Positions 35,752-52,480 of a stretch of DNA of 64,000 bases are shown piece after piece; within the stretch, counting starts at the first letter, position 1, and every line of letters begins with the position of its first letter. The stretch lies in the NCBI RefSeq assembly GCF_016765655.2, contig NZ_CP086106.1:3833001-3897000 (forward strand), in the 5' to 3' direction. This DNA comes from Skermanella mucosa (GTDB lineage: Bacteria > Pseudomonadota > Alphaproteobacteria > Azospirillales > Azospirillaceae). Both the position numbers and the translations under genes were made by a program. The notes below the pieces were generated by a model, which saw nothing but the letters and a program-made list of their open reading frames with translations, ran no database searches and had not been told where the DNA came from.

Positions 35752-36909
35752 TCAGGATGCCAGGACGGCCGGCGATTCACCCGGGACGGCGTCGCGGCGG
35801 AACTGGAGGAGTTCGTCCGGGGTCGGCGGTCGCTTGAAGGCGCCGGCGACCCGGCGCACCCGCGGCAGGATCGCCTGCGCCTCGCCGTCGCTCAGCTGGA
35901 TCCCCAGGCCGGCGAACGCCAGCTTGACTCCGGCCGAACCGGAATGCTTGCCGAGCACGATGCTGTGCCGGCGGCCGACCTCCGCCGGGTCGAAGCCCTG
36001 GTAGGTCAGCGGATCGCGCAGCAGGCCGTCCACATGGATGCCGGCCTCGTGAGTGAAGACGGCGCCGCCGACGATGCTCTTGTTGATCGGCACCGGCCGG
36101 TTCGACGCCCTCGCCACCAGATCCGAGATGGCCGGCAGGCGCATCGCCTCGACGCCGGTATCCGTGCCGTAGAGGTGGCGGAGCCCCATCACGATCTCCT
36201 CCAGGGCCGCGTTGCCGGCGCGCTCGCCCAGGCCGTTGACGGTGGTGTTCACGTGGGTGGCCCCGCCGCGGACCGCGGCCAGCGAATTGGCGGTGGCGAG
36301 GCCCAGGTCGTCGTGGGCGTGGATCTCGATCTCTAGGTCGGTCCGCGCGCGCAGCGCCTGGATGAAGGCGAAGGTCTGGAATGGGTCGAGCACGCCCAGC
36401 GTGTCGGCGAAGCGGTAGCGCCGGGCGCCGGCGGCCTGCGCCGTCTCCGCGACCCGCGCCATGAAGTCGGGATCGGCGCGGGAGCTGTCCTCGCCGCCGA
36501 AGCCGACTTCCAGGCCCAGGTCGCGGGCGGTCCGGATCTGGCGGTCGATCTGGGCCAGCGCCCAGGCCCGGTCGCGGCCCAGCTTGCGCTGAATGTGGAT
36601 GTCGGACACCGGCATCGACATGTTGACGAACGACACGCCGCAGGTGGCGGCCTCATGCAGGTCGTCGGCCCGCATCCGGCACCACACCATCAGGCGGGTC
36701 CGCGCCAGCCCGGCGGCGGCCACGGCGCGGATACTCTCGCGCTCCTCCTCGCCCATGGCGGGAATGCCGATCTCCAGTTCGGGCACCCCCGCGGCGTCGA
36801 GCGCACGGGCGATCGCGATCTTCTCCTCGACGGTGAAGGCGACGCCCGCGGTCTGCTCGCCATCGCGCAGCGTGGTGTCGTTGATCGTGACGGAGCTCGG
36901 CTCGGGCAT
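35752..36909 (-). CDS. nifV: homocitrate synthase NifV
   Basis: A 385-residue acyltransferase that condenses acetyl-CoA and 2-oxoglutarate to homocitrate, the organic ligand of FeMo-cofactor. It has the TIM-barrel start [20 protein letters not shown] (residues 5-24) with the catalytic Arg-Asp, [49 protein letters not shown] with the metal-binding HxH region, [18 protein letters not shown] and [18 protein letters not shown] use the ATG at 36909; the in-frame start 19 codons upstream is atypical. nifS lies 100 bp upstream with an inverted repeat in the gap. Confidence 0.95.
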
Positions 36910-36951
36910 CGCGGTGACTCCAGGGGAGGACTTTGTAGCCGTAGGTCGGGT

Positions 36952-37007
36952 AGAGCGCAGCGGCACCCGACAATCAGGCGCGATGGCGTCGGGTGCCGCT
37001 GCGCTCT
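36952..37007. repeat. REP-like inverted repeat between nifS and nifV
   Basis: The 20-base arm agagcgcagcggcacccgac (36952-36971) is repeated as a perfect reverse complement at 36988-37007. It could attenuate transcription from nifS into nifV or stabilise the 3' end. Its sequence style resembles the palindrome at 30591-30624. Confidence 0.8.
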
Positions 37008-37009
37008 GC

Positions 37010-37771
37010 TTACGAGTAGACCGGCTGGAAACCGGCCGTTGCCCCCTGGTTGGTCCAGTAGGGCGACAGCTTGCGCAGCCGCTCGATGATGCCCGGCATG
37101 ACCCGGATCACCGTGTCGATCTCCTCCGCCGTGGTGTCGCGCGACAGGGAGAACCGGGTGGCGCCGTGGGCCGCAGTGTAGGGCACGCCCATCGCCCGCA
37201 TCACATGGCTCGGCTCCAGCGAACCGGACGTGCAGGCCGATCCGGAGGAGGCCGCGATGCCTTCCTCGTTCAGCAGCAGCAGGATCGCCTCGCCCTCGAT
37301 GAACTCGAACGCGATGTTGGCGGTGTTGGGCAGGCGGTTGGCCGGGTTGCCGGTGACGAAGCAGTTGGGGATCGCCTCCACCAGCGCCCTCTCCAGCCGG
37401 TCGCGAAGCGCCGCCACCTGGGTCAGCTCGATCGACATCGACTCGCGCGCGAGCTCGCACGCCTTGCCCAGCCCGACGATCGCCGGCGCGTTCTCGGTGC
37501 CGGCACGGCGACCGCGCTCCTGGTGGCCGCCGCGAAGCATCGGCCGGAAGCGGACTCCGCGCTTGACGTAAAGGGCGCCGATGCCCTTGGGGGCATGCAG
37601 CTTGTGGCCCGACAGCGACAGCATGTCGATGGCCGAGTTCGCCAGGTCCATCGGCAGCTTGCCGACCGCCTGGACGGCGTCGGTGTGGAACAGGGCGCCG
37701 ACCTTCTTCGCCATGTTCGCCAGCAAGTCGACCGGGAAGATGGTGCCGGTCTCGTTGTTGGCCCACACCAA
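37010..37771 (-). pseudogene. nifS: nifS, 3' part, interrupted by phage-like element
   Basis: The frame encodes the last about 253 residues of NifS, the PLP cysteine desulfurase that supplies sulfur for nitrogenase clusters. It begins inside the conserved WANNETG motif and keeps the PLP Lys (SLSGHKLHAPKG, residue 57 of this fragment), RGGHQERGRRAGTENA and the catalytic Cys (AASSGSACTSGS, residue 180). About 140-150 N-terminal residues, including the pyridine-stacking His, are missing. Upstream of a fortuitous TTG the frame gives unrelated codons (SFSSAIL) and a TGA near 37818. The fragment shows no frameshift, so inactivation is recent or the interruption is reversible. Confidence 0.93.
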
Positions 37772-37858
37772 AATAGCTGAAGAAAAACTATTTCGAAACA
37801 GCGGGTTACTGGCTCACCAAACCAATTGTGTTTTCACTGGGAGTTCGGATCACCCCCA

Positions 37859-38282: not shown

Positions 38283-39605
38283 TTGTCGAGCGTTCTTCTG
38301 CCGGACGGCGTGCTCCGGACCACGATTAACTTTCAGTACCGGCGCTGGCAGCGCGAGGTTCTTCCGCTGATGACCCACTGGGTCGCGATGAACGTTCATC
38401 GCGGCGGGGGCAAAACCGTTTTCTGCACGATGCGCCTCATCCAGGCAGCCCTCACGACCAAGACCAAGAATGGTATCCCGGCGAAATTTTCATACGTCGG
38501 GATGTCGATCAGCCATGCCCGCCAAACCATTTGGAACGAACTGAAGCATTACCTCGCTCCACTGGGCGACAAGGTTCAGTTCAACAGCAACGACAACACC
38601 GTAACCTTCGAGAACGGCAACATAATCCTGTTGTCGGGCTACGAGGACCCCGAGCGCAATCGCGGTTTGCACCTTCACGGACTGGTGCTCGATGAGGCGC
38701 AGGGATGCCCACAGAAGGTGTGGGACGAGATCCTGATGGCGACGCTGGCGCAGAACGAGGCGTGGCTGATCGTGATCGGCACGCCGCGCGGCACGGGGAA
38801 CCTGTTCCACAAGTTCTGCCTCCAGGGCGACGACCCGAACGACGACACGATCACCACGATTACCCGAACCGTCGCCGATACCGGCGAGATGTCGCCGACC
38901 ATGTGGAAACGAATCCTGGCGAACGGTGACCGGGACGCCATCCGCCAGGAGTATTTTTGCGATTTCATGGCTCGGGTGAAAAACCGGGTCTATTCCAACT
39001 TCGACACCCGGACCAGCTTCCCCGCAGGCGATGACACCAAACCGCACATCGACCCGTCGATCCGGTTCGACAAGGACCGGCCGGTGTGGGTCGGCATGGA
39101 CTTCAACGTGGGAACGTTGCCCGCCGTCTGTGCCCAGATGCAGGACGACGGCACGATCCACATCTTCAACGAACTCACCCTGCACGACACCACGACCGAC
39201 CGGATGGCGGCGCTGTTGCGCGCGGAGTTCCCGAACCAGAACGTGATCATCTGCCCCGACGCCTCGGGCACCCAGCGCAAAACCTCGGCGCTCGCGGGGT
39301 CGGACATAACGATCCTGAAAAGGATGGGTTTCGAGGTCCGAATCCCGACCATGAATCCCCGGACCAAACACCGCGTGCTCGCCTGTCAGGTGGCGCTGGA
39401 GAGCGCGGACGGCACCCGGTCGGTGTTCATCCACCCCCGCTGTAAGCGCCTGATCGAGTGCCTGACGCTTCAGCAGTACAACGCGAACGGCGACCCGGAC
39501 AAGACCAAGGGCTTCGACCACCACGCCGACGCCTTCGGCTACCTGATCTGCGCCCTGCGGCCGATCAAATACAACCGGACCCGGAGCCGGGAATTCATCC
39601 TCTGA
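38283..39605 (+). CDS. terL: phage terminase large subunit
   Basis: A 440-residue DNA-packaging motor. The N-terminal ATPase has a Walker A-like HRGGGKT (residues 39-45), Walker B LHGLVLDEAQ (Asp138, Glu139) and the coupling motif VIGTPRGTGN. The C-terminal RNase H-like nuclease has Asp273 in VGMDFNVGTLP, Asp326 in IICPDASGT and the final GFDHHADAFGYLI. The start is a TTG; an in-frame TAG 18 bases upstream limits the choice to TTG or a CTG. It drives headful or cos cutting of concatemers into proheads. No small subunit gene is recognisable next to it. Confidence 0.95.
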   Translation: MSSVLLPDGVLRTTINFQYRRWQREVLPLMTHWVAMNVHRGGGKTVFCTMRLIQAALTTKTKNGIPAKFSYVGMSISHARQTIWNELKHYLAPLGDKVQFNSNDNTVTFENGNIILLSGYEDPERNRGLHLHGLVLDEAQGCPQKVWDEILMATLAQNEAWLIVIGTPRGTGNLFHKFCLQGDDPNDDTITTITRTVADTGEMSPTMWKRILANGDRDAIRQEYFCDFMARVKNRVYSNFDTRTSFPAGDDTKPHIDPSIRFDKDRPVWVGMDFNVGTLPAVCAQMQDDGTIHIFNELTLHDTTTDRMAALLRAEFPNQNVIICPDASGTQRKTSALAGSDITILKRMGFEVRIPTMNPRTKHRVLACQVALESADGTRSVFIHPRCKRLIECLTLQQYNANGDPDKTKGFDHHADAFGYLICALRPIKYNRTRSREFIL

Positions 39606-39648: not shown

Positions 39649-41088
39649 TTGAACGTATTCAATCCCAGTCACGCATATTTGGATATGCAGGCTCACCGGC
39701 ATCTGCCTCGCACTCTTTGGGCCGGGCTGCGCGCGATGCAGGCATGCGGTGAGCTTTACCTGCCGCGCGAGCCGGGCGAGAGCCAGCCGAACTACGAAGT
39801 CCGCCTGCGGCGCAGCACCTTGTTCAACCAGTTCAGCCGGACGATTGAGACCGCAGCCGGAAAAGTTTTCAGCAAGCCGCTGAGGTTTGTCGATCTGCCG
39901 CCCGATCTGGAGCCCTTCCTGGAGAATTGCGACCAGATGGGCAACCACATCGACATCTTCGCGCGCGATTGGTTCCGCGAAGCCCTCGTGGACGGTCTGG
40001 CGTTCGCGTGCGTGGACGTATCGCGCACCACGCCGCCCGGTCAACCGGTCACCGTGGACGACCGGAAGTCCGGCCGGGTGCGCCCCTACGTCGTGATGTA
40101 CAAGGCGGGCGATGTGCTGGAAACCCGGTTCGAGACGGTCGATGGCGTGCCGGTGCTGACCCGCGTGCGCATCCGGGAGAGCCGGTTCGTCCCCGACCCG
40201 GCTAATGACTACGCCGAAATCTTCGTTGAACGGGTTCGCGAACTTCGGCCGGGCTCGTACACGGTCTACGAACGGCAGGCCGATGGCGACAAGGTGATCG
40301 CGACCGGTTCGACCGGACTTTCGTTCATCCCGTTCACGTGCCTGATGTTGGGTCGGCGGATCGCCCCGATGACGGCTTACCCGGCGCTGGCGAACCTCGC
40401 GACGGAGAACCTGCGGCACTACCAGAGCCAGAGCGACCAGAACAACATCCTGCGCATCGTCCGGGTGCCGCTTCTGCATCTGGCGGGCTTCGATGAAGTA
40501 GATGACGAAGGGAACAAGCGGACGGTCGTGGTCGGTCCGAACACTTTGCTTGAGTCCGGAGAAATGGGCAAGGCGCAGTACGTCGAACATTCAGGAGCCG
40601 GTGTCGGTTCTGGTTTCGAGGACTTACGTTCTATCGAAGAGCGCATGAACCAGATGGGTATGTCCTTGACCGTTCGCCAGACGACCGGCGATATTACTGC
40701 GACCGAGAATAATTTGGTTTCCTCCGAGGCGCATTCGGCCCTCGGCGCGATGGCGACCAGCTTGCAGGACAGCCTGGAACTGCTGCTGGCCTACGCCGCC
40801 CAGGCCATCGGCCTGCCGGGCGACGGCGGCAGCGTGATCGTGCACAAGACGTTCGGTTCGGACGGCAACTCCATCGTGGAGGCCCAGCTTCTCACCCAGG
40901 CCCGCGCAAATCGCGACATCACGCAACTGACCTTTTTGCGCGAATTGAAGCGCCGGGCGATCCTGAACGAGGATTTCTCCCCGGAGGACGAAGTGGAGGC
41001 GGTCGGCGACGAGCAGCCGGAACCGTTGATCGGGTCACCGCTGGCGCTCAACACCGCCCCGGCCGATGACGACGGCGACGGCGAGTAA
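39649..41088 (+). CDS. phage portal protein (DUF4055 type)
   Basis: A 479-residue portal that forms the dodecameric channel at the capsid vertex. It begins with a TTG (MNVFNPSHAYLDMQAHRHLP) behind CGAGGTAAGAG. Blocks include YEVRLRRSTLFNQFSRTIET, DWFREALVDGLAFACVDVSR, FIPFTCLMLGRRIAP, LATENLRHYQSQSDQNNILR and QMGMSLTVRQTTGDITATEN, the pattern of DUF4055 portals. The C-terminus is acidic and disordered. It abuts the MuF-like gene with a one-base overlap (TAATG). Codons around 40590-40720 are AT-richer than the rest of the gene. Confidence 0.9.
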   Translation: MNVFNPSHAYLDMQAHRHLPRTLWAGLRAMQACGELYLPREPGESQPNYEVRLRRSTLFNQFSRTIETAAGKVFSKPLRFVDLPPDLEPFLENCDQMGNHIDIFARDWFREALVDGLAFACVDVSRTTPPGQPVTVDDRKSGRVRPYVVMYKAGDVLETRFETVDGVPVLTRVRIRESRFVPDPANDYAEIFVERVRELRPGSYTVYERQADGDKVIATGSTGLSFIPFTCLMLGRRIAPMTAYPALANLATENLRHYQSQSDQNNILRIVRVPLLHLAGFDEVDDEGNKRTVVVGPNTLLESGEMGKAQYVEHSGAGVGSGFEDLRSIEERMNQMGMSLTVRQTTGDITATENNLVSSEAHSALGAMATSLQDSLELLLAYAAQAIGLPGDGGSVIVHKTFGSDGNSIVEAQLLTQARANRDITQLTFLRELKRRAILNEDFSPEDEVEAVGDEQPEPLIGSPLALNTAPADDDGDGE

Positions 41089-42146
41089 TGTCGGTCAACG
41101 AGGATTTGGCCGACCGGGCGCTCGCGCACGCGATTGACCTCCAGCGGCTCAGCGCCGGGGAACGGCGCTCCCTGCTGTCCTTTTTGGAAGAGCTTCAGGA
41201 CGAGATATCCGCGCTGCTGGTCGGCTACAAGCCCGGTGCCCGGAGCGAGACTCAGCGCAGGCGATTGACCGAACTGCTGGCGATCATCACGGAAACGATC
41301 ACCGCCAGCTACTCGGCCATGGCGAAGCAGCACATCGCCCACCTGACCGAACTGGCCGAGATCGAAGCCCTCGCCACGGTCAAGGCGCTGACCGCCAGCC
41401 TGCCGGTCAAGCTGGCTCTGGTCACCCCGACCGGGAACCAGTTGAAGTCGATCATGGCCGATCTGGTCATCGAAGGCGCGCCGGTTTCAGTGCACTGGAC
41501 GCGCCTCGCCGGGGACATGGCAGCGCGCGCCCATGATGAAATCCGCAAGGGGCTGATCGCCGGGGAGACCGGTCCCGATCTGGTCAAGCGGATCGTCGGC
41601 AGCAAGACCACCCCGGCGTTGATCGACGCGCCCAAGCGCCACGTCACCAGTCTGGTCAAGACCTCGACCGCCGCAGTCGGCAACACGGCGCGGATGGAGA
41701 CCTACCAGCAGAACAGCGACGTGGTGAAGGGTGTCCAACAGCTATCCACCTTAGATGGTAGGACTTCCGCAGTGTGCATTGCATACTCGGGGAAATCCTG
41801 GCAGTTAGATGGCAAGCCCATCGGCCACAACCTACCTATGAACGGTGGGTGCCCACGTCACTACAATTGTCGAAGTGTCCTGATTGGAATTGTCCGCTCG
41901 TGGAAGGAGTTGGGGATCGACCTGGAGGAAGCCCCGCCCGGCACCCGCGCCAGCCTGGACGGACAGGTGCCATCAAGCCTGACCTTCGACCAGTGGCTCG
42001 CCAAGAAGGACAGGAAGTTCCTTGACCAATTGCTCGGCCCCGGCCGCGCCGACCTTTACGCACGCGGCAAGATCACGGCCAGCGACCTCGTGGACCAGAC
42101 CGGCCGTCCCATGAGCCTGGAAACCCTGCGGGCTAAATACCGCTAA
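41088..42146 (+). CDS. phage head morphogenesis protein (Mu F/SPP1 gp7-like)
   Basis: A 352-residue minor head protein. The N-terminal two-thirds are helical. The C-terminal MuF domain (residues about 215-270) has STLDGRTSAVC, QLDGKPIGHNLPMNGGCPRH and YNCRSVLIG, the conserved Cys/His set. MuF proteins bind the portal and help assemble or eject. About 41740-41900, which encodes exactly this conserved domain, has AT-rich codons (TTA, AGG, GTC-poor) unlike the flanks and may be a recombined segment. The last codons contain GCTAAATACCGC. Confidence 0.9.
   Translation: MSVNEDLADRALAHAIDLQRLSAGERRSLLSFLEELQDEISALLVGYKPGARSETQRRRLTELLAIITETITASYSAMAKQHIAHLTELAEIEALATVKALTASLPVKLALVTPTGNQLKSIMADLVIEGAPVSVHWTRLAGDMAARAHDEIRKGLIAGETGPDLVKRIVGSKTTPALIDAPKRHVTSLVKTSTAAVGNTARMETYQQNSDVVKGVQQLSTLDGRTSAVCIAYSGKSWQLDGKPIGHNLPMNGGCPRHYNCRSVLIGIVRSWKELGIDLEEAPPGTRASLDGQVPSSLTFDQWLAKKDRKFLDQLLGPGRADLYARGKITASDLVDQTGRPMSLETLRAKYR
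42134..42139 (+). promoter_or_regulatory. TAAATA motif, copy 4
   Basis: GGCTAAATACC is in the last codons of the MuF gene, 88 bases before the scaffold-like gene. Confidence 0.35.
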
Positions 42147-42221: not shown

Positions 42222-42914
42222 TTGACGACCGAAACTACCATTCCCGAAAACACCGAGAACACCGCTGATCCGACACCGCCGACCGGCGAGGATGTGACCG
42301 GACTAAAAAGCGCCAACCAGAAGCTACTTTCAGAAAAGAAGGCCCTGGCAGCCCGTCTGGCGGCGCTGGAGGCCAACCTGACCGAACTCGCTGGCGAGAA
42401 GGCCGCGAGAGAGGAGGAAGAGAGCATCCGTCGGGGCGATTTTGATCGTGTAAAGACCAAGATGGTAACGGATCACCAGAACGCGCTGAAGGCGGCACAG
42501 GAAGACGCCGAGAAATGGCGCAATGCCTATCAGGCCCACGTGGTCGAGAACACACTGGTCAAGGCGCTGGCAGCCGAGCAGGCCGATGTCGATCTGGTAC
42601 TCCCCCATCTCCAGGGCCGCATGAAACTCGCCGAGGTGGACGGCAAGGTGGTCACCCAAATCTACGACCGCGACGGCACCGAACTGCCCGGCAAGGACGC
42701 CGCCTATCTGGTCGAGGAGATCAAAACCCGTTTCCCGACCGCGTTCCGGATCAACACCGCTTCCCCGACCAACGCCCGGCCGAACACCAGTGTGGCCGCA
42801 GGCGAAACCAATCCGTGGGCCAAAGAGACGTGGAACAGGTCTCATCAGGCCAGGATCGAGATGACCGACAAGAACAAGGCGGCGCTGCTGAAGGCCCAGG
42901 CAAACGTTAAGTAA
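42222..42914 (+). CDS. probable capsid scaffolding protein
   Basis: A 230-residue acidic protein from a TTG start eight bases behind GGAGG. Residues about 25-75 are a strong coiled coil (GLKSANQKLLSEKKALAARL, then LTELAGEKAAREEEESIRRG). A helical region with VKALAAEQADVDLVLPHLQG follows, then a polar tail. Position between MuF and the major capsid gene, charge, size and coiled coil fit phage scaffolds, which shape the prohead and leave it. No protease gene is nearby, so it may be released without cleavage. The assignment is structural. Confidence 0.75.
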   Translation: MTTETTIPENTENTADPTPPTGEDVTGLKSANQKLLSEKKALAARLAALEANLTELAGEKAAREEEESIRRGDFDRVKTKMVTDHQNALKAAQEDAEKWRNAYQAHVVENTLVKALAAEQADVDLVLPHLQGRMKLAEVDGKVVTQIYDRDGTELPGKDAAYLVEEIKTRFPTAFRINTASPTNARPNTSVAAGETNPWAKETWNRSHQARIEMTDKNKAALLKAQANVK

Positions 42915-43046: not shown

Positions 43047-44000
43047 ATGGCTAAGATGCAGACTGCCGATCTGGCGTATATCGTCCAGAACTCGGCCCCC
43101 TACATTCGCGAAGCGAGCGTCAAAAAGAGCGTTTTCTTCGGCTCGGGCGTTATCACGCCGGTCCCCGGCCTCACCATTCCGAAGGGTGGGCAGGTGACGA
43201 TCCCGAATTTCGGTCGGATCGCCTCGACCGCCCAGGTTCTCCGTGATGACCAGCCGCTCGTCACCTCGAAGATCACCACCGGCAAGCAGGTCGGCGTCGT
43301 CGTCAACCGTGGCGATGCGTGGTCGGTCAATGACCTCGTGGGTGCGTACGCAGGCGAGGATTTCGTCGGCGAGATCGAAAGCCAGATCGGCGAATACTGG
43401 AGCGACCAGATCGACCAGCACGCCGTCTCGGTCGTCAAGGGCGTGACCGGCGCGCTGGCCGCGACCAACGCTCACAACATTTCGGGCCTCACCGGCTCCG
43501 ACGCCGTGATCAGCAACCAGAGCTTCAACGCGGCCCTCCATCGCCTCGGTGACGCTCGCGGCAAGCTGGCGATGGTCGTCGCTCACAGCGACGTGATCCA
43601 GAAACTCGAAGACCTCAGCATGCTGGACAATCTGACCGTTTCGGAAATGCCCGACGTGCAGACGATCCGCAAGCGCCCGATCCTGGAGACCGACAGCCTG
43701 ACCCCGACCGGCGGCGTCTACGACATGTACATCGTGTCGCGCGGCCTGCTGGCCTTCGGTGAAGGGTTGAATCTTGGTGACGAACTGGAGTCGGACCGCG
43801 ACATTTTGGCCCGTGACACCGTGATCACCAGCGTCCGGTCATATACGATTCATCCATTCGGAATGAGCTATGGCGGCACCGCCATCGGCACCAACGGTCA
43901 GACCCCGACGAACGCGGACTTCGCGACGGCTGGCAACTGGACCCGCGTGTTTGATCCCAAGAACATCGGTGTTGTGAAGTTCAGCTTCAAGCTGGCCTAA
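43047..44000 (+). CDS. phage major capsid protein (HK97 fold)
   Basis: A 317-residue protein behind GTGAGGAAATC. The start MAKMQTADLAYIVQNSAPYI and the blocks TIPKGGQVTIPNFGRIASTA, KQVGVVVNRGDAWSVNDLVG, QSFNAALHRLGDARGKLAMV, VAHSDVIQKLEDLSMLDNLT and YTIHPFGMSYGGTAIGTNG fit the major-capsid family that lacks a cleaved delta domain. The NDLVGAYAGEDFVGEIESQI helix resembles the HK97 spine helix. Position after the scaffold is canonical. Its own AT-rich upstream region suggests strong separate expression. Confidence 0.9.
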   Translation: MAKMQTADLAYIVQNSAPYIREASVKKSVFFGSGVITPVPGLTIPKGGQVTIPNFGRIASTAQVLRDDQPLVTSKITTGKQVGVVVNRGDAWSVNDLVGAYAGEDFVGEIESQIGEYWSDQIDQHAVSVVKGVTGALAATNAHNISGLTGSDAVISNQSFNAALHRLGDARGKLAMVVAHSDVIQKLEDLSMLDNLTVSEMPDVQTIRKRPILETDSLTPTGGVYDMYIVSRGLLAFGEGLNLGDELESDRDILARDTVITSVRSYTIHPFGMSYGGTAIGTNGQTPTNADFATAGNWTRVFDPKNIGVVKFSFKLA

Positions 44001-44252: not shown

Positions 44253-44753
44253 ATGATCGTCGTGGAAACCGGGGCGCTCGACAACGCCGAGGCCAATTCT
44301 TACGTCAGCCTGTCCTCGTTCAAGGGGTTCCTGGTGCTGCACGGCGCGACTACCGCACTGGAACGCGACGACGCCGAACTGGAAGCGGCCCTGATTCGGG
44401 CGGCAGCGCACATCGATACCTACCGGGCCAAGTTCCTCGGCCGACCGGTAGCCTTCGACCAGCCGCTCGTCTGGCCGCGTACCGCCGTCACCCTGGACGG
44501 CTTCGACGTTCCCTCGACCACGATCCCGCGCATCATCCTCCAGGCGCAGCAGCAGCGCGCCCTCGCCGATCTGAACGGCACCCTGCCCGAGACCTCCCAG
44601 GTGGTCCTGCGTCGCCGTGAACGACTGGACGTGATCGAGGAAGAGACGGAATACGCCCCGATTCCGGCGTCCGCCCGGCCGACCGGCGACATCACCCGCC
44701 TGCTGTCGCCGCTGTTCGGTAGCCGCTCGACCGGCGAGATCGTCCGAGGATGA
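44253..44753 (+). CDS. head-tail connector/adaptor protein (DnaT_2-like)
   Basis: A 166-residue protein. MIVVETGALDNAEANSYVSL, ELEAALIRAAAHIDTYRAKF, DQPLVWPRTAVTLDGFDVPS and IPRIILQAQQQRALADLNGT match phage proteins annotated as DnaT-like ssDNA-binding that occupy the adaptor (gp6/gp15-like) position below the portal. A role as head-completion adaptor is more likely than DNA priming. It overlaps the next gene by four bases (ATGA). Confidence 0.82.
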   Translation: MIVVETGALDNAEANSYVSLSSFKGFLVLHGATTALERDDAELEAALIRAAAHIDTYRAKFLGRPVAFDQPLVWPRTAVTLDGFDVPSTTIPRIILQAQQQRALADLNGTLPETSQVVLRRRERLDVIEEETEYAPIPASARPTGDITRLLSPLFGSRSTGEIVRG

Positions 44754-45112
44754 GCAGGCTCTATCAGGCCAAGGCGAAAGCCAAGCTCGACGGACTGGTG
44801 CCGCGCGGGCTCGGCGTCCAGATCACCCACATCCGCAAGGCCGTGATCTTCGACCCGGCGACACAGACCGCCACCACCACCGACCTGAGCCAGAAGGCAT
44901 CCGCCTCGATCAAGACGCACGAGGTGCGCAACGACGACGGCACGATCCGCAGCGTCCAGCGCGTCTTCCTGTGCGACGCGGCGGGACTGAAGACGGCCCC
45001 GGTCGCGGGTGACATCATCCGCCACGCGGGCACCGACTACACGATCACGGCGGTCGAGACCCTGGCCCCCGGTGGTGTGCCGATCCTGCACAGGATTTTC
45101 GTGAACTCGTAA
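44750..45112 (+). CDS. head-tail joining (stopper-like) protein
   Basis: A 120-residue, mostly beta protein: QAKAKAKLDGLVPRGLGVQI, SIKTHEVRNDDGTIRSVQRV, then GDIIRHAGTDYTITAVETLA and VPILHRIFVNS. The GDxIxxxGxxYxI pattern is typical of head-closure proteins such as SPP1 gp16 and HK97 gp7 types. Overlaps on both sides (ATGA and TAATG) indicate translational coupling in the connector block. Confidence 0.75.
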   Translation: MSRLYQAKAKAKLDGLVPRGLGVQITHIRKAVIFDPATQTATTTDLSQKASASIKTHEVRNDDGTIRSVQRVFLCDAAGLKTAPVAGDIIRHAGTDYTITAVETLAPGGVPILHRIFVNS

Positions 45113-45507
45113 TGGCCGATCAGTTCGTTCTCGATCTCCAGAAGTTCGCCAAGCTCACCGAGGACAAGATCACCCTGGCGCTGCGCAAGATCATCTTGGA
45201 AATCTTCACCCGCGTCGTTGAACGAACTCCGGTCCGCGATGGGCGAGCCAGAGGTGGGTGGCAGGTCGGAATCAACGTCCGACCCGAGGGCGAAACCAGC
45301 CGGATCGACAAGGACGGCAGTCCGACCATCTCGGCGGGCGAGGCCGACATCCTGCGCGCCATGCTTCGGGACGAAATCTGGATTTGTAACGGTGTCCCGT
45401 ACATCGGAATTCTTGAGACCGGCAGCAGCACCCAGGCACCTCACGGGTTCCTGGCGATCACGCTGCGCGAATTCCAACAGATCGTGAAGTCGGCTCCGAA
45501 TAAATAG
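45112..45507 (+). CDS. HK97 gp10-like tail completion protein
   Basis: A 131-residue protein with the helix LTEDKITLALRKIILEIFTR, then VVERTPVRDGRARGGWQVGI and VPYIGILETGSSTQAPHGFL. The TPVxxGxxRxGW and YxxxLExGxSxQAPxG blocks identify the gp10-like (minor tail Z) family that joins tail tube to neck. The stop codon lies within the motif AATAAATAG. Confidence 0.88.
   Translation: MADQFVLDLQKFAKLTEDKITLALRKIILEIFTRVVERTPVRDGRARGGWQVGINVRPEGETSRIDKDGSPTISAGEADILRAMLRDEIWICNGVPYIGILETGSSTQAPHGFLAITLREFQQIVKSAPNK
45501..45506 (+). promoter_or_regulatory. TAAATA motif, copy 6
   Basis: GAATAAATAGG overlaps the end of the gp10-like gene, 36 bases before the tail terminator. Confidence 0.4.
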
Positions 45508-45536
45508 GGTCACCACATCGTGACCTACAGGGAGCC

Positions 45537-45941
45537 ATGGCTGTCAGCTACACCGCGTTAGAAACCGCGCTCGGGAACCACCTACGGGCCATCCCCGGCG
45601 TCACCCACATCGCTTGGCCGAATGTCCCGTTCACCGCGCCGAAGACCGCCCTGTGGGTTCGCCCCACCCTGCTGGCCGCGCGCGCCGCGACGCTGACCTA
45701 CGGCACCAGTTCGGTTTCCGGGTTCCCCGGCGTCTACCGGATCAACGTGTTCGGACCCAAGGGCCAGGGCATCGCCCCGGTTTCCAAGCTGGTTGACGAC
45801 ATCATCAACGCTTTCCGCGCCGCCAGCATCGATGCGGATGGCATAAATATCGAAGTCGAGAACGCATGGCGTTCGTCTTCGCTTTCGGACGATCTGTATT
45901 TCCAGATCACGGCCGACATTTCGATCAATTTTATTAGTTAG
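45537..45941 (+). CDS. tail terminator protein (DUF4128-like)
   Basis: A 134-residue protein, MAVSYTALETALGNHLRAIP followed by HIAWPNVPFTAPKTALWVRP and FPGVYRINVFGPKGQGIAPV. This is the alpha/beta pattern of phage tail terminators (lambda U/DUF4128), which cap the tail tube and set its end. It follows a CAGGGAGCC ribosome-binding site. One in-gene TAAATA (45844) precedes the tail tube gene by 109 bases. Confidence 0.85.
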   Translation: MAVSYTALETALGNHLRAIPGVTHIAWPNVPFTAPKTALWVRPTLLAARAATLTYGTSSVSGFPGVYRINVFGPKGQGIAPVSKLVDDIINAFRAASIDADGINIEVENAWRSSSLSDDLYFQITADISINFIS

Positions 45942-45952
45942 AGGAATAGTCC

Positions 45953-46870
45953 ATGGCGTTTACCCAAGGCTCCCGCAGCCGGATTTCGTTCATCGCAGAG
46001 ACCACTTTGGGCGTGACGCCCGCCACCCCGGTTTTCCAGGCGATCAATTTCCAGTCGTTCGATCTGGCACCGACGCTCACCATGTCCGAGAATCCGGTGA
46101 TCCGCAGCGACCGCAACTCCAGTCTGCCGACACCTGGGAACCAGGGCTCGACCGGCCAGATCGTCGGGCCGCTGCATTACCAGGGTTATGATTCGCTGAT
46201 CGCGGGCGCGCTGGGCGGCACCTGGACCGCGAATGTCGTCAAGAACGGCGTCCTGAAGCCGACCTTCTCGATGGAGCGCGCGCACCTCGACACCGCCCAG
46301 TACGGTATCGGTCGCGGCATGTACGTCAACGGCATGACGCTGAACTTCGCGGCGGGTGAGCCGGTCGGCGCTACCTTCAACATGATCGGCAAGAGCTTCG
46401 CCTGGAGCAGCGCCGAGCCGCAGGTTTCGTTCGCGACCTCCACGACCGATCCGGTTTCCGCCAACAACCTGATGCGGTCGGCGTCCGGTGTCGTAACAGA
46501 AGGTGGTCAGACCATTGCTCTGATGACTTCGGCGAACATCACCCTGAACAACGGCGGCGAACAGCTTTACGTCTACGGCTCGAATAGTGCCGCTGAACTG
46601 TCGCAGAGCACGGTCCAGGTGACCGGGACCATCTCCCTGTACTGGGAGAACAAGACGATGATCCAGAAATTCCTGAGCGGTGCCCAGTCCTCGCTCTCGA
46701 TCAAGGCCAGCAATGGCACCAACGAATACACGATCACCCTGCCCGCGATCCGCTACACGGGCGGCAACGCGCCGGTTTCGACGGCGGGCGCGCTGACTCT
46801 CGAAATGCCCTTCGTGGCCGGTTACGACGCCACGGCGGACTGCACCATCTCGGTGACGAGGACCGCGTAA
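45953..46870 (+). CDS. major tail tube protein
   Basis: A 305-residue beta-rich protein. MAFTQGSRSRISFIAETTLG, QAINFQSFDLAPTLTMSENP, VIRSDRNSSLPTPGNQGSTG, then QIVGPLHYQGYDSLIAGALG fit the siphovirus tail tube family (TTP, lambda V-like N-domain). The C-terminal part (ITLPAIRYTGGNAPVSTAGA) closes the tube fold. It polymerises around the tape measure. Short gaps to both neighbours. Confidence 0.9.
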   Translation: MAFTQGSRSRISFIAETTLGVTPATPVFQAINFQSFDLAPTLTMSENPVIRSDRNSSLPTPGNQGSTGQIVGPLHYQGYDSLIAGALGGTWTANVVKNGVLKPTFSMERAHLDTAQYGIGRGMYVNGMTLNFAAGEPVGATFNMIGKSFAWSSAEPQVSFATSTTDPVSANNLMRSASGVVTEGGQTIALMTSANITLNNGGEQLYVYGSNSAAELSQSTVQVTGTISLYWENKTMIQKFLSGAQSSLSIKASNGTNEYTITLPAIRYTGGNAPVSTAGALTLEMPFVAGYDATADCTISVTRTA

Positions 46871-47272
46871 ATGGCTAACCTGACCGCTCTCAGCACCAAG
46901 CGAAAAGCCGAGGAAGGCGTGGAGATCGAACTGCATCTCCACAACTACCCCGGCGAATACACCGGTCTGTTCGTCACCATCCCCGGTCCGGGCTCCGCCG
47001 TCGCCAAGCGCGTCGGCAAGGCCATGGCCGACCTGGAGCAGCAGGCCGAGCGCCAGCGCCGCCAAGTCAAGGTCGATGACGCCAAGTATATCGAGATCAT
47101 GAGCGACTTGATCCTCGACTGGCGAGAGTTCGAGGAAACCAACGACAAGGGTGAACTGGTCGAAATCCCGTTCACGAAGCCCAACGTCCTGCGCGTCCTG
47201 ACCGAGAACGACTGGATCATCGAGCAGGTGTTGTCCGCGATGAAGGACACCAAACTTTTTATCAGCGCGTAG
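46871..47272 (+). CDS. tail assembly chaperone, G-like
   Basis: A 133-residue protein starting at the base after the tube stop. It is acidic (KRKAEEGVEIELHLHNYPGE, ADLEQQAERQRRQVKVDDAK, LILDWREFEETNDKGELVEI, NVLRVLTENDWIIEQVLSAM) and in the position of lambda gpG. It would coat the tape measure before tube assembly. The T-run AAACTTTTTA just before its stop is a candidate -1 slippery site leading to the GT fusion. Confidence 0.88.
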   Translation: MANLTALSTKRKAEEGVEIELHLHNYPGEYTGLFVTIPGPGSAVAKRVGKAMADLEQQAERQRRQVKVDDAKYIEIMSDLILDWREFEETNDKGELVEIPFTKPNVLRVLTENDWIIEQVLSAMKDTKLFISA

Positions 47273-47616
47273 TCGAGGATTTAGCCAAAGTCATCAGATA
47301 TCGCGTCTGGCTCGACTACGCACGAAAAGACGGCTCGACCATCCGCGACCAGTTCCTTGCCGTCGAGGCGATGACTGGTCGCACGCCCCAAGAACTGCTG
47401 GACGAACCGGCCGTCCCGAGGGCGTACGCCGAGCTTATCGAAACCCTCTGGCATCTAAATAGTAGTAGTGGTGGCGAGGGAATCTCCTACCGCGAGATCG
47501 ACAGCTACATGCGATGTACCGGAGCGATCCTCCATCCGTGGGAATGCGAGGCACTGGTGAAGCTGGCCACGGTCATCCAGCACGCTATGGTTGAGCAACG
47601 GAGGGGAACTGAATGA
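47257..47616 (+). CDS. T domain of tail chaperone, read by -1 frameshift (GT)
   Basis: The -1 frame relative to G is open from 47155 to 47616 and has no start or ribosome-binding site at its beginning. After a slip on T5 (47256-47260) it encodes FYQRVVEDLAKVIRYRVWLD, YARKDGSTIRDQFLAVEAMT and a C-terminal ISYREIDSYMRCTGAILHPW, typical of lambda T-like domains that bind the tube protein. The stop overlaps the tape-measure start (ATGA). The slippery sequence is not a textbook heptamer, so the exact slip codon is uncertain. An internal ATG (47371) exists but would lose a third of the domain. Confidence 0.78.
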   Translation, partial: FYQRVVEDLAKVIRYRVWLDYARKDGSTIRDQFLAVEAMTGRTPQELLDEPAVPRAYAELIETLWHLNSSSGGEGISYREIDSYMRCTGAILHPWECEALVKLATVIQHAMVEQRRGTE

Positions 47617-50195
47617 CGGATATCGCGTCGCTCGCAGTAAAAATCAGGATGGACGGCGCGGATCAGGCCGTCGCCGGTCTCAACAAGGTGGCAGCCGCCG
47701 GTAAGAAGGCGGCGAACGATGTCGGCGATGCATCCGGCCGGTTTACCGATGCGGCCGGGCGGCTGCGCGAGGCCAACGGCCGGTTCGTCCAGAGCGGCAA
47801 CGTGCTCGACGGCCTCGGCAAGAAGGCGACCAGCCTGAAGGACAGGCTGGCCGATCTGGTGCCCAACTTTGGGGCGCTGGGCACCATCGTCGGCACCCTC
47901 GGCCTCGCCAAGCTGGCATCCGACTTCATCGACGCCAACAAGGAAGCCGAACGCCTCCGGACCTCCCTGACCTCGGTGGTCGGCTCGGCCGGTCAGGCGG
48001 GCCAAGACCTGGAATTCTTGCGGGAATTTGCCAAGGATACCCCGGCGGGCCTCAACGAGGCGACCGAGGCGTTCATCGCGCTGCGGGTGCGCGGCGTCAA
48101 GCCGACCATGGACGAACTCAAGGGTCTGGCCGACCTCGGTTCGGCGTTCTCCGGCCGCTCGGTCAAGGATGCGGTGGACGCGGTGACGGCGGCGACCCGT
48201 GGCGAGTACGACCAGTTGGAAGGTTTTGGCCTCGCTGCGAAGGCGGTCGGCAAGGAGGGCGATAAGCTCGCCATCACCTTCAATAATGTGACGACGGTGG
48301 TCAAGAAAGACACCGACAGTATTATGAAATATATGTCGAATTTGGGTAAAACCAGGTTCGCCGGGGCCGCTGCGGCGCAGATGCAGACCCTCGGCGGGTC
48401 CATCGACACCCTGGCCGAATCCTACCGGAACCTGATGACCAAGTTCGGCGAGACCGGCGTCTCCGAAGTGCTGGCGCTGGCGATCCGGGGCCTCGCCGGG
48501 GCGATGGATTTTCTTGCCGATAACATCAATGTCGTGGTCGGTATCCTGAGCGGGGCCTTCGTCGGCGGCATGGTGTACGCCGCCTCGACCGTGCTGCCGC
48601 TGCTGGTCACCGGCCTGACCCTGGCGACCGGTGCGGTGAAGGCGTTCACCGCGTCGCTGATGCGCAACCCTTTGACCATCATCTTCACGCTGCTGGCGGT
48701 CGCCATCGGCTCCGTGATCACGGCGATCCTGGACTTCAAGGACGAACTCAGCGAGGCGGCGGGTCGGGCGGTCTCGCTGGCGCAGACGCTCAAGATCGTG
48801 TGGGAAGGGGTCAAGACGACCTTCAAGGTGGTCTTCGAGCAGATCGGCATCATGTTCGCCAGCACCGTAGACTACATGCTGGGCGTCGCGGTCGGCTTCT
48901 GGAACGACCTCAAGGCGATCTGGAACGACGGCGACTTCTCGTTCAGCCACCTCGCCGCCGCGTTCAACAAATCGATCACCGGGATGGATTTCGGCCTGAT
49001 CAAGAAGAAGGTCGGCGAAGCCTTCGACGCCCAGGCCATCGGCAAGAGGATCGGCGGCGGTCCTACGACCAGTACCGACACCCCCGGCGCTGGTGGCGTA
49101 ACCGGGGAACCCGACAAGGAGATCGAGAAGGCCCGCCAAGCCTACGCGGAACGCCTCGCCGACATGGCCGAGGAACGCGACTTCCTGCGCTACAAGCTGA
49201 CCTACATCACCCAGGAAGCCGACCTGATCGACCGGCTGAACATGGATTACGAACTGGGCAATCTGCGTAAGAAGGCAGGGGTCGCGCTGACCGACGAGAT
49301 CAAGAAGAAGGAAGGCGATCTGGTCAAGGACTTGGCGGCGCAGCGCAAAGAATACGACCGGATGGTGGAGCTTAAGGGCCACGCCAAGTCGCTGATCGAG
49401 AGCCTGAAAACTCCGGCCCAGGAATACCGCGAAGAAATCAAGAAGATCAACGAGGAGCTTGAGCGGAAGCTGATCACGCCGGAGCAGGGCGCACTCGGCA
49501 AGCAGCAGGCGGAGTTCAGGCGGCAGGACGAGAGCAAGGAAGGCATCGACGGGGCCAAGCGCGGCCTGCGCAAGCTCAGTATCGCGGTGAACGACGACGC
49601 AGCCCTGATGGAGAGCACGGTGACATCCGCGTTCACCTCGATGGGCGACGCGATGGCCGAGTTCGTCACCACGGGTAAGTTGAATTTTGGCGACCTCGCT
49701 CGCTCGATGATTGCTGAAATGGTTCGGATTTACACGATTCGGATGGCCCTCAAGGTCTTCGACATGATCGTTCCCGGCATGGGCGCGGCAGCCGGTGCGG
49801 CGGTCCAGCCGAGCGCCAACGGCAACGTAATCAGCGGCGGAAATATCGTTCCGTTCAGCCGGGGCGGCGTCGTCGGTTCGCCGCGATATTTCCCGCTCGC
49901 CAACGGCAATGTCGGATTGATGGGGGAGGCCGGACCCGAGGGCATTCTGCCCCTTCAGCGCGGCCGGGACGGCAAGCTCGGCGTGATCGCCCAGCCCGGC
50001 GCGGCCTCCGAGGGCGGCGGCAACCAGATCATCAACGTTTCGCTCCAGACGACGATCAACCCGGCACCCGGCGCGACGACGGAGGATGCCCGCAAATTCG
50101 CCGACGAATTTGACAAGGCCGTTGAAGCGAAGGTGGTCAGCACCCTGGCGACGATGAACCGGGGCAACCGGGCACGCGGCGCGATGCGGGGCTAA
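47613..50195 (+). CDS. tail tape measure protein
   Basis: An 860-residue protein that sets tail length. The N-terminal MTDIASLAVKIRMDGADQAV, then NKVAAAGKKAANDVGDASGR begins a long helical region. FIDANKEAERLRTSLTSVVG and FAKDTPAGLNEATEAFIALR identify the tape-measure domain. Two or three membrane-like helices lie at about 305-375 (NINVVVGILSGAFVGGMVYA, LLVTGLTLATGAVKAFTASL). The C-terminal part has GDLARSMIAEMVRIYTIRMA and the TMP tail GEAGPEGILPLQRGRDGKLG. By the usual 1.5 angstrom per residue it implies a tail near 130 nm. Confidence 0.95.
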   Translation: MTDIASLAVKIRMDGADQAVAGLNKVAAAGKKAANDVGDASGRFTDAAGRLREANGRFVQSGNVLDGLGKKATSLKDRLADLVPNFGALGTIVGTLGLAKLASDFIDANKEAERLRTSLTSVVGSAGQAGQDLEFLREFAKDTPAGLNEATEAFIALRVRGVKPTMDELKGLADLGSAFSGRSVKDAVDAVTAATRGEYDQLEGFGLAAKAVGKEGDKLAITFNNVTTVVKKDTDSIMKYMSNLGKTRFAGAAAAQMQTLGGSIDTLAESYRNLMTKFGETGVSEVLALAIRGLAGAMDFLADNINVVVGILSGAFVGGMVYAASTVLPLLVTGLTLATGAVKAFTASLMRNPLTIIFTLLAVAIGSVITAILDFKDELSEAAGRAVSLAQTLKIVWEGVKTTFKVVFEQIGIMFASTVDYMLGVAVGFWNDLKAIWNDGDFSFSHLAAAFNKSITGMDFGLIKKKVGEAFDAQAIGKRIGGGPTTSTDTPGAGGVTGEPDKEIEKARQAYAERLADMAEERDFLRYKLTYITQEADLIDRLNMDYELGNLRKKAGVALTDEIKKKEGDLVKDLAAQRKEYDRMVELKGHAKSLIESLKTPAQEYREEIKKINEELERKLITPEQGALGKQQAEFRRQDESKEGIDGAKRGLRKLSIAVNDDAALMESTVTSAFTSMGDAMAEFVTTGKLNFGDLARSMIAEMVRIYTIRMALKVFDMIVPGMGAAAGAAVQPSANGNVISGGNIVPFSRGGVVGSPRYFPLANGNVGLMGEAGPEGILPLQRGRDGKLGVIAQPGAASEGGGNQIINVSLQTTINPAPGATTEDARKFADEFDKAVEAKVVSTLATMNRGNRARGAMRG

Positions 50196-50198
50196 ATA
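50193..50198 (+). promoter_or_regulatory. TAAATA motif, copy 9
   Basis: GGCTAAATACT includes the tape-measure stop codon and ends only four bases before the next ATG. That is too close for an ordinary promoter of that gene. Confidence 0.35.
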
Positions 50199-50202
50199 CT
50201 GC

Positions 50203-50571
50203 ATGGCTACTCCCTCGCATCCCCTCCCCAACGGCCTCGACGCGAAGATTTCCCAGGCCGTTGCGGGAAGTTTCAATCAGGCCCGCCGAACCATCGAGTT
50301 CGGTGACGGCTACGTGCAACATCAGAAGTCCGGTATCAACGGCGCGGGCGCGACCTACAGCGTCGAGTGGGTCGGCCTCAGCGAGACCGACGCCGCCACC
50401 CTGATCGCGTTCTTCGAGGCCCGTGGCGGCGTCGAGCGCATCCGGTGGAAGCCGCCCCTGCGCAGCGCCGAGCAGCTATTCACGTGCGCGACGTTCAACG
50501 CCAAGCTGACCAACGGCTCCGGTATCCTGTGGACGGTCACCGCCGACTTCGAGCGGACCTTCTCGCCATGA
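50203..50571 (+). CDS. minor tail protein, lambda M-like
   Basis: A 122-residue beta-rich protein with IEFGDGYVQHQKSGINGAGA, YSVEWVGLSETDAATLIAFF and the GGVERIRWKPPLRSAEQLFT block, the signature of the phage minor tail M family (FGDGY and FxWxP). It belongs to the tail-tip initiator complex. Its stop overlaps the L-like start (ATGA). Confidence 0.93.
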   Translation: MATPSHPLPNGLDAKISQAVAGSFNQARRTIEFGDGYVQHQKSGINGAGATYSVEWVGLSETDAATLIAFFEARGGVERIRWKPPLRSAEQLFTCATFNAKLTNGSGILWTVTADFERTFSP

Positions 50572-51089
50572 GCTACGTCCTGGACCAGCAGGCCGAGGGA
50601 TTGGTTCTCGGCGCTCGCATCGAGTTGCTGGAAGTCGATATCAGTTCGGTGGTCGAGGGTGCCCCGACCTACCGGTTCACGCCGAATGTCACCAGCACGG
50701 GCGACATCGTGCGCTACAACGGCTTCGTGTGGGCCGCGACGGCGCTGCGCACCTCGGGGATGCTGTACGACGGAACCGGCGGGTTGCCGCGCCCGACCCT
50801 GGAACTGGCCGATGTGAACGGCATCCTGATGATGGAAGCGATGAAATACCAGGATTTGGTCGGCTGCACCGTGAAGCGGTGGATCACCTGCGAACAGTAC
50901 CTCGACCCCAATCCCAACGCGGCATGGGGTCCGGAGATTTTCGTCGTGAACAAGAAGATCGCGGCCGATGGCACCCGGATCGTCCTCGAACTCGCCAGCA
51001 TCGTTGACCAGCGCAACATGGTGATACCGAAACGCCGAATGTTTAGGAAAGAGTTCCCCGGACTGGCGCGGACACGGCCGAGGGGCTGA
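50568..51089 (+). CDS. minor tail protein, lambda L-like, without the C-terminal Cys domain
   Basis: A 173-residue protein starting at the ATG at 50568. LVLGARIELLEVDISSVVEG, FVWAATALRTSGMLYDGTGG, LPRPTLELADVNGILMMEAM and LVGCTVKRWITCEQYLDPNP match gpL of lambda-like tails. Lambda L has 232 residues and a C-terminal Cys cluster holding a [4Fe-4S] centre. Here the protein stops at MVIPKRRMFRKEFPGLARTR and that domain is missing; no frameshifted remainder is visible downstream. It is part of the tail-tip hub. Confidence 0.9.
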   Translation: MSYVLDQQAEGLVLGARIELLEVDISSVVEGAPTYRFTPNVTSTGDIVRYNGFVWAATALRTSGMLYDGTGGLPRPTLELADVNGILMMEAMKYQDLVGCTVKRWITCEQYLDPNPNAAWGPEIFVVNKKIAADGTRIVLELASIVDQRNMVIPKRRMFRKEFPGLARTRPRG

Positions 51090-51114
51090 CGGCGGATCAA
51101 TCGCCGAACCTGCC

Positions 51115-51120
51115 TAAATA
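51115..51120 (+). promoter_or_regulatory. TAAATA motif, copy 10
   Basis: GCCTAAATAGA lies in a 36-bp gap and is directly followed by GGC and the K-like ATG. The overlapping AGAGG may be the ribosome-binding site. Confidence 0.35.
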
Positions 51121-51125
51121 GAGGC

Positions 51126-51890
51126 ATGTACCCCGAACTCATCCCCGAAATCAACGCCCACGTCCTGGCCGAGTATCCCCGCGAAGCGTGCGGCATCATC
51201 TACCATAACGGCGAGCGGGCCGTCTACAAGGCGTGCCCGAACATCCACCCCGAGCCGGAGAAGGCGTTCCGGATCAACGCGCGCATCATCGCGCCGTTGC
51301 AGCGGGACAGGAAACTGCGGGCCGTGGTCCACAGCCACACCAACGGGCAGTTCCACCCCTCGCGCGCCGATATGGAAAGCCAGATCAAGGTCGGTTGCAG
51401 CTACGCCATCGTGGTCACGGACGGGGAAAATTGTTCGCGGCCGGTGTACTGGGGCGACGACGTGCCGATCCCGCCCTACGACGGGCGCGAATTCCGCCAC
51501 GGCCCGAGCGGGTCGGACGGGCGCGGCGATTGCTATTCGCTGATCCGCGATCACTATTTTCAGGAACTCGGCATCCGGCTGCCGGAATACCCGCGCGACG
51601 CCGACTGGTGGCTCGATGGATTGGACCTGTACAGCCAGTTCGCGGGTGACGCCGGGTTCGTCCAGGTCAGTCTGACCGACATCCAGGAACACGACTGCGT
51701 GCTGATGTCGATCCTGAACAAAAACAACACCGCGAACCACGGCGCGGTCTACCTGGGTCACGAGAAAGGCACGCTGCGCCATCACCTCGGCCACCGCCTC
51801 TCGCATTCCGAGGACCCGCTTTACAAGTGGCAGCGACAAATTCACTCGGTCTGGCGGCACAAATCCATGTTCAAGCCTGAGCAAAATTGA
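51126..51890 (+). CDS. tail assembly protein, lambda K-like (JAMM peptidase + NlpC/P60)
   Basis: A 254-residue two-domain protein. The N-terminal Mov34/MPN domain has the full JAMM zinc set: Glu20 (YPREACG), His69 and His71 with Asp82 (VVHSHTNGQFHPSRADM). The C-terminal NlpC/P60 domain has Cys136 (GRGDCYSLIRDHYF) and His205 (NTANHGAVYLG). K proteins act in tail-tip assembly and probably cleave peptidoglycan cross-links at entry. Its stop overlaps the I-like start (ATGA-type). Confidence 0.95.
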   Translation: MYPELIPEINAHVLAEYPREACGIIYHNGERAVYKACPNIHPEPEKAFRINARIIAPLQRDRKLRAVVHSHTNGQFHPSRADMESQIKVGCSYAIVVTDGENCSRPVYWGDDVPIPPYDGREFRHGPSGSDGRGDCYSLIRDHYFQELGIRLPEYPRDADWWLDGLDLYSQFAGDAGFVQVSLTDIQEHDCVLMSILNKNNTANHGAVYLGHEKGTLRHHLGHRLSHSEDPLYKWQRQIHSVWRHKSMFKPEQN

Positions 51891-52480
51891 TGAGCGAATT
51901 CAAAGAGATATGGATACACGGCAAGCTCGCCGAACAATTTCCCGACAGCCCCTACCGGTTCAAGGTCGCGACCGCGCACGAGGCAAGCTGGGCGATGGAA
52001 ATCAATTTTCCCGGCTTTCATGCCGCGATCCGCGACCAGATGATCGAAGTCGTTCTCGGCGACAAGGACACCGGTCTGGCGCTGGATGAGGAAGAGCAGG
52101 TGCATTTCGCCGTGCCGGAGAACCAGATTCATTTCTCCTACGCGCCCGAGGGCGAAGGCTCGCGCACCGGCAAGGCGATCCTCGGCACCCTGCTGATCGT
52201 CACCGCCGCCGTCCTGTTCGTCGCCGTTCCCGGCACCTCGCAGTACGCCCTGCAACTCGCCCTGGCGGGCGGCGCGATGATCTTCGGGGCGATGACGACC
52301 CCGCCCAAGTCGGATTATTCGGCGCGCGAACAGGACCCCAGGAAGTCCAGTTTGCTGTCAGGCCCGGCGACCCAGGTCGAGGAGGGCAATTCGGTCCCCC
52401 TGGTCCTGGGCGGCAACGAGGGCGTGCTGTGCGGCGGCGTCTTGATCAGCGCCTCGCTTGATGTTCAGCAGGTCGCGTAA
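51887..52480 (+). CDS. tail assembly protein, lambda I-like
   Basis: A 197-residue protein. The N-terminal ubiquitin-like part (KEIWIHGKLAEQFPDSPYRF, MEINFPGFHAAIRDQMIEVV) is followed by a hydrophobic segment (AILGTLLIVTAAVLFVAVPG, QLALAGGAMIFGAMTTP) and a C-terminal VEEGNSVPLVLGGNEGVLCG block that resembles the J-binding region. It assists J incorporation. The residues after the membrane-like segment match the GxxVPLxYG pattern common in this family. Confidence 0.9.
   Translation: MMSEFKEIWIHGKLAEQFPDSPYRFKVATAHEASWAMEINFPGFHAAIRDQMIEVVLGDKDTGLALDEEEQVHFAVPENQIHFSYAPEGEGSRTGKAILGTLLIVTAAVLFVAVPGTSQYALQLALAGGAMIFGAMTTPPKSDYSAREQDPRKSSLLSGPATQVEEGNSVPLVLGGNEGVLCGGVLISASLDVQQVA

Follow-up and report, generated by a model that had tools for sequence, protein, structure and literature searches.

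The window, meaning the whole 64,000-nucleotide stretch of DNA that was analyzed, covers bases 3833001-3897000 of the 6,407,183-bp contig C1 in a genome of 7,840,710 bp on 5 contigs. The genome was treated throughout as that of strain Skermanella mucosa 8-14-6T. On the minus strand, nifV (35752-36966) was found as an intact open reading frame, with a score of 537.2 bits against TIGR02660 (cut-off 462.9). This is the host gene to the left of a junction that interrupts nifS. The 3' part of nifS (37010-37767, minus strand) extends from the WANN|ETG segment to the stop codon in an unbroken frame, matches positions 142-379 of TIGR03402 with 403.9 bits, and breaks off at position 37767. When the frame is read across the junction from the nifS side, a stop is met ~45 bases past it (open frame of 267 aa, against 253 aa from the first possible start). 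The GC content of the inserted element was determined to be 61.8%, compared with 66.7% for 34.6 kb of its flanks.

The inserted DNA occupies positions 37753-64000 of the window and continues to genome position 3916184. The genes on its plus strand were assigned by comparison with PHROGs and encode, in order, the large subunit of the terminase (38283-39605; phrog_2, E 8.2e-42), the portal protein (39649-41088; phrog_145, E 2e-104), a head morphogenesis protein (41088-42146; phrog_241, E 1.5e-107), a head scaffolding protein (42222-42914; phrog_206, E 6.5e-34), and the major head protein (43047-44000; phrog_247, E 6.7e-59). These are followed by the connectors (head-tail adaptor, head closure, neck protein, and tail terminator; 44253-45941; phrog_477, phrog_161, phrog_169, and phrog_179) and by a block of tail genes at 45953-52480 for a minor tail protein, an assembly chaperone, the tape measure protein, and further minor tail and tail assembly proteins (phrog_290, 313, 1716, 30, 14, 18, and 32). 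The tape measure gene within this block is located at 47613-50195 (plus strand). A central tail fiber J-like protein of 1794 aa is encoded at 52510-57894 (phrog_31, E 9.8e-208). Genes for a primase-like protein, a replication-initiation-like protein, and an integrase are found towards the right end of the element.

The gene for the integrase, a tyrosine recombinase of 460 aa (phrog_1, E 6.8e-28), lies beyond the window at genome positions 3914656-3916038 on the minus strand. The score against Pfam PF00589 is 24.8 bits, slightly below the cut-off of 27.1, and no match to PDB sequences was obtained at E<=0.01. The R, HxxR, and Y segments expected for the family were seen by eye in the translation.

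Immediately past the integrase, the remainder of nifS was located on the minus strand at genome 3916185-3916629 (3916183-3916626 in the profile search). This 5' part matches positions 1-148 of TIGR03402, and the two nifS parts thus lie on the same strand at either end of the element. At the left junction is a 15-bp core, CGTTGTTGGCCCACA (37753-37767, plus strand), which codes for the conserved WANN(E) stretch of NifS. An identical copy is found at genome 3916185-3916199 (83185-83199 if the window were extended), in direct repeat and 45,432 bp away from start to start. The core occurs in 2 exact copies in the whole genome, with 3 further places that differ by one mismatch. When the two flanks were joined in silico, nifS became a single open frame that scores 584.2 bits against the TIGR03402 cut-off of 530.75.

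A sequence-only reading of the window had described an abrupt break at WANNETG into less GC-rich DNA with a stop about 45 bases on, a 3' part free of frameshifts, and only phage genes beyond the break. The frames, the GC values, and the PHROGs matches to head and tail genes bear this out. The same reading had pointed past the window for the missing 5' part on the minus strand, for a short direct repeat near the junction, and for a recombinase next to the far repeat; all three were found, with the integrase gene ending 146 bp from the right core. Its statement that the 3' two-thirds of nifS keep every catalytic residue was too strong, because the N-terminal DNNATT and His regions, conserved segments of NifS, would lie in the 5' part.

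With an integrase at the att site, a set of head, connector, and tail genes, and a duplicated core, the element is assigned from its gene content as a temperate siphovirus-type prophage whose att sites lie within nifS. The prophage is presumably still able to excise. Three further features of the prophage were noted. An open frame of 1568 aa runs from window 60677-64000 on to genome 3898383 on the minus strand, opposite to the structural genes; the codon-position GC bias fits its own strand (phase assigned by hand), and no match was found in PHROGs, Pfam, PADLOC, or PDB sequences. A DUF2971 protein encoded past the window but inside the prophage (genome 3909495-3910451) matches the candidate phage-defense models PDC-S31 (best E 1.6e-41) and is possibly the product of a prophage-borne defense or superinfection-exclusion gene. 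The tRNA-SeC called by ARAGORN at 53586-53651 (minus strand) falls within the J-like tail fiber gene and is probably a false positive.

The single S. mucosa genome available for comparison (completeness 98.58% as computed in this analysis and 100% according to PMC11767975) was compared with 4 congeners: S. aerolata KACC 11604 (G078), G079 (tentatively S. pratensis W17T), S. rosea M1T (G080), and G081. Each of the congeners was found to carry two nifS paralogues, A and B, with a DNA identity of only about 60-62%. Relative to G079, the 5' half of the S. mucosa gene is 96.5% identical in amino acid sequence to nifS-B and 46.9% to nifS-A, whereas for the 3' half the amino acid identity is 98.0% with nifS-A (95.9% in nucleotides) and 50.0% with nifS-B. 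The same pattern, B for the 5' half and A for the 3' half, was obtained with S. rosea as the reference. DNA alignments to the congeners end exactly at the two core copies, the left one in nifS-A and the right one in nifS-B, and the bases beside the core in S. mucosa are A-type to the left and B-type to the right of the prophage. On these alignments, the two nifS pieces in S. mucosa are parts of two different genes of its relatives.

In each of the 4 congeners, both nifS genes carry an exact copy of the 15-bp core (8 of 8), and its orientation is the same wherever A and B share a contig; in G079 the two cores are 20,592 bp apart. An ancestor with the layout of the congeners would therefore have offered the phage two attB sites that flank the nitrogenase core, which lies between nifS-A and nifS-B in the three congeners that have both genes on one contig (G078, G079, and G080). 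G081 has nifS-A on a contig other than that of nifS-B and nifH. The interval between nifS-A and nifS-B in G079 contains nifU, nifN, nifE, nifK, nifD, nifH, and draG above the NCBIfam cut-offs, in addition to further genes.

This interval of ~20.6 kb is absent from the S. mucosa assembly. From G079, 61 reading frames were picked by length and codon composition and compared with a 127-kb region of S. mucosa; 17 of these lie wholly between the cores, and 0 of the 17 were matched at E<=1e-10. One of the 61 frames is nifS-B, and outside the interval 41 of 43 frames match and 2 do not. The two unmatched frames (G079:C1:3731375-3735071) lie beyond the nif cluster, and the S. rosea region that was compared has no match to them either. 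Genome-wide, nifN, nifE, nifK, nifD, nifH, and the dra genes were covered, among the matches listed, by a 15.7-kb DNA query taken from the interval in G079. This query was recovered almost in full, both in G079 and, at 83-94% identity, in all 3 other congeners (split into two pieces in G081). With S. mucosa, the same query gave short cross-matches only, the best being 64% over 1.2 kb among the matches listed. The absence of nifU was determined within the 127-kb region.

No match to nifK was detected on the 5 contigs of the S. mucosa genome at E<=1e-10; the interval DNA query and the nifH search, both positive in the 4 congeners, served as controls for this result. The search of the S. mucosa genome for nifH gave nothing over the cut-off, and the best matches, at 224 and 199 bits, are inferred to be the bacteriochlorophyll relatives BchX/BchL. 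At E<=1e-110, nifH is present in 63 of the 82 genomes of the family, and it is missing from just one of the 5 Skermanella genomes, that of S. mucosa. In the genus labeled g3, nifH was found in 42 of 45 genomes; G017, G041, and G043 have neither a nif-type nifS nor nifH at the thresholds used, and G047, a fragmented draft, has nifS without nifH. These four genomes represent possible independent losses of nif.

The absence of these genes agrees with the published description. According to section 3.2.3 of PMC11767975, nifDKH are absent from S. mucosa 8-14-6T and the strain did not grow when NH4Cl was left out, and the same paper reports that strain TT6T and S. rosea M1T possess nifDKH and grow in N-free medium. 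The section on nifDKH in PMC11767975 offers no cause for the loss, and the main text of that paper, which does mention bacteriophage immunity, contains no word that starts with nifS, phage, deletion, or integrase.

The nif-linked genes that are left behind show no relaxation of selection in a comparison of branch dN/dS values. For 11 genes picked by position (2738 codons; nifV, cysE, nifB, fixA/B-like genes, and others), the value for S. mucosa was determined to be 0.112, versus 0.105 and 0.116 in two relatives. The corresponding values for 30 other genes were 0.141, 0.153, and 0.133. The frames of nifB, nifV, and cysE are open in S. mucosa, and a stop seen in the nifB alignment is upstream of the likely start. 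Since the remaining nif-linked genes show no decay, the nitrogenase genes were probably lost recently relative to the divergence of the species rather than long ago. The constraint on these genes does not show that nitrogen fixation persists.

The possibility had been raised from the sequence that the element is of the heterocyst type and would excise in nitrogen-fixing cells to rebuild nifS for fixation. Several features fit this proposal: conserved nif coding sequence is interrupted, direct repeats and a recombinase are present at the end of the element, excision yields one open nifS frame, and the leftover nif-linked genes look constrained. The proposal fails on content. Excision would leave a B/A chimera rather than a native nifS, in a genome where the nifK, nifH, and interval searches found no nitrogenase genes, and the strain does not grow when NH4Cl is absent (PMC11767975). 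The arrangement also shows no sign of conservation, with a relative of the integrase in 1 of the 81 other family genomes (31% identity, E<=1e-30). Among the best 80 of 542 confirmed nifS-like loci, 0 are interrupted; 77 align over their full length in one piece, and the other 3 are truncated at the end of a contig. No second split nifS was seen in the family among the matches listed. Programmed restoration of nifS for fixation is thus contradicted by the missing nitrogenase genes, the A/B chimerism, and the lack of growth without NH4Cl, and the chance that the element serves in this way is close to nil. The other option that had been offered, a recent disabling insertion, is nearer to the evidence; what is observed, however, is a deletion plus a phage and not an insertion alone.

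Recombination between two homologous prophages in direct orientation deletes the DNA between them and leaves one prophage at the junction. In S. mucosa, the DNA between the two att sites of the relatives is missing, and one prophage is found at the junction. We consider it likely that the nitrogenase genes were lost in a phage-associated deletion between the two nifS att sites. The ancestor would have had the layout of the congeners, with two direct attB sites ~20.6 kb apart around the nitrogenase core. By the main route, the phage would integrate into both nifS-A and nifS-B to give a double lysogen, and the two 45-kb prophages would then undergo homologous recombination, which would remove the interval and leave one prophage. 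Alternatively, the integrase may have joined the att site of a single prophage to the second attB. Either route would give the 3' half of nifS-A, the core, one prophage, a second core, and the 5' half of nifS-B, with nifHDKEN gone. Among the genomes and phage collections searched, no double lysogen, no single lysogen in one nifS, and no excised form was seen. A rather improbable variant is that the integrase treats the nif core itself as a cassette and excises the 20.6-kb segment as a circle via the nifS-A and nifS-B sites; if this were true, such phages would be recurrent one-step strippers of nitrogenase in the Azospirillaceae.

The main competitor of a phage-associated deletion reverses the order of events, with nifS-A and nifS-B crossing over at a short shared stretch and the phage later entering the attB site of the chimeric nifS. 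In keeping with this order, joining the halves gives an in-frame chimera that scores above the NifS cut-off. Since there are several short runs of identity between nifS-A and nifS-B (23, 17, 17, 15, 14, and 14 bp in G079, the att run being among them and not the longest), a phage-independent crossover at this place would be no great coincidence. The att run accounts for 17 of the ~100 bp in identical runs of at least 14 bp in G079, and for 20 of ~112 bp in S. rosea, so that the coincidence with the att site is estimated at ~1 in 6 on the assumption that the frequency of crossovers is proportional to the length of the run. However, homologous recombination works poorly between two genes with such low DNA identity, and the switch from A to B falls inside the very stretch that holds the phage core. 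For these two reasons, a deletion that preceded the phage is judged to be the less probable order, though one that deserves to be taken seriously, and a deletion brought about with the participation of the phage is favored.

It is also conceivable that the deletion is an artifact, in which identical prophages in both nifS genes were collapsed into one during assembly and the nitrogenase segment was dropped. A repeat of 45 kb is long for Nanopore reads, and the same junctions would be expected. The assembly is described in PMC11767975 as a hybrid one with 820-fold coverage and every contig circular, which speaks against an artifact. In addition, the nitrogenase genes were found on 0 of the 5 contigs, and the reported lack of growth (PMC11767975) fits a real loss. 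An error of this kind is very improbable.

In the family (82 genomes), the integrase was matched at E<=1e-30 in its own genome and in one other only, the latter being the distant relative mentioned above. In the class (385 genomes), it was found at E<=1e-40 in its own genome only, among the matches listed and with no more than 4 candidates scored in each genome. A collection of genome contigs gave 8 pattern matches and 0 relatives of the integrase, and no relative of it was found in the phage records or in IMG/VR. For the portal protein, a relative was detected at E<=1e-60 in 1 of the 81 other family genomes (40% identity), and 5 pattern matches in IMG/VR included 0 relatives. The phage records gave 433 matches to the portal, all at <60% identity and at most 37.1% among the best 12 of the 433. 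When 24.9 of the 45.4 kb of the prophage were searched for near DNA matches, only 8 Escherichia phage records were returned, each matching in one short place; the 5 matches listed of these 8 are 71-77 bp in length and fall in the tape measure gene. No IMG/VR contig gave an exact match to the attP junction. Several of these searches may leave out records of the genome of the window itself. Close relatives of the phage and integrase were found nowhere else in these collections, and the order of events was thus not observed.

The arrangement in S. mucosa shares features with three known systems. In heterocyst-forming cyanobacteria, interruption elements that are excised during development occur in nifD, nifH, fdxN, hupL, and other genes, with both serine and tyrosine recombinases reported (PMC4874684); the 22 ortholog groups given as interrupted in Table 1 of this 2016 survey do not include nifS. 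The S. mucosa element resembles those described in PMC4874684 in its location in conserved nif coding sequence, its short direct repeats, and a recombinase near one end. It differs in being a phage with head and tail genes, flanked by halves of two paralogues, in a genome from which the nitrogenase genes are gone. The phage phiSa3 in hlb of Staphylococcus aureus is an example of a temperate phage integrated within a protein-coding gene (PMC6597384). The element in S. mucosa is like such phages in having an integrase gene beside the att site, an exact core in coding sequence, and a structural module, but in the congeners the target is present twice and flanks an operon, and this operon is missing here. 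As expected for the product of a deletion between prophages, the intervening DNA is lost and one prophage remains at the junction; unlike in those deletions, the sites here are two paralogues of one metabolic gene, whose halves flank the phage. The present case combines a prophage whose att site lies in a coding gene with the associated deletion of an operon. A literature search, with most subscription papers outside its scope, found no title or opening of an abstract on a prophage in nifS or a nif deletion made by a phage.

A phage-associated deletion offers a concrete cause for the lack of nifDKH and the difference in growth that are reported in PMC11767975, and removal of the phage alone should not bring back nitrogen fixation in S. 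mucosa. A split gene with perfect repeats may also turn out to be the halves of two paralogues and thus a false positive for programmed gene restoration. The conditions for such an event are found more widely. Among the matches listed and as judged by hand, 3 Skermanella genomes and 19 of the 45 g3 genomes have nifH on a single contig with a nifS copy on each side; in the other g3 genomes, the second copy of nifS is far off, on another contig, or absent among the matches listed. In the 30 best-scoring nifS loci of the family, the core was sought anywhere in each ~4-kb locus and not at the nifS site alone. It was found to be exact in 14 of the 30 (4 of 4 in Skermanella and 10 of 26 in the others) and to have one mismatch in the remaining 16. 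Since all 30 loci hold the core or a copy with one mismatch, this phage may find a target in many of the relatives. With nifH flanked by two nifS genes and the core so widespread, a phage that uses this site could strip a whole metabolic trait from its host at once.
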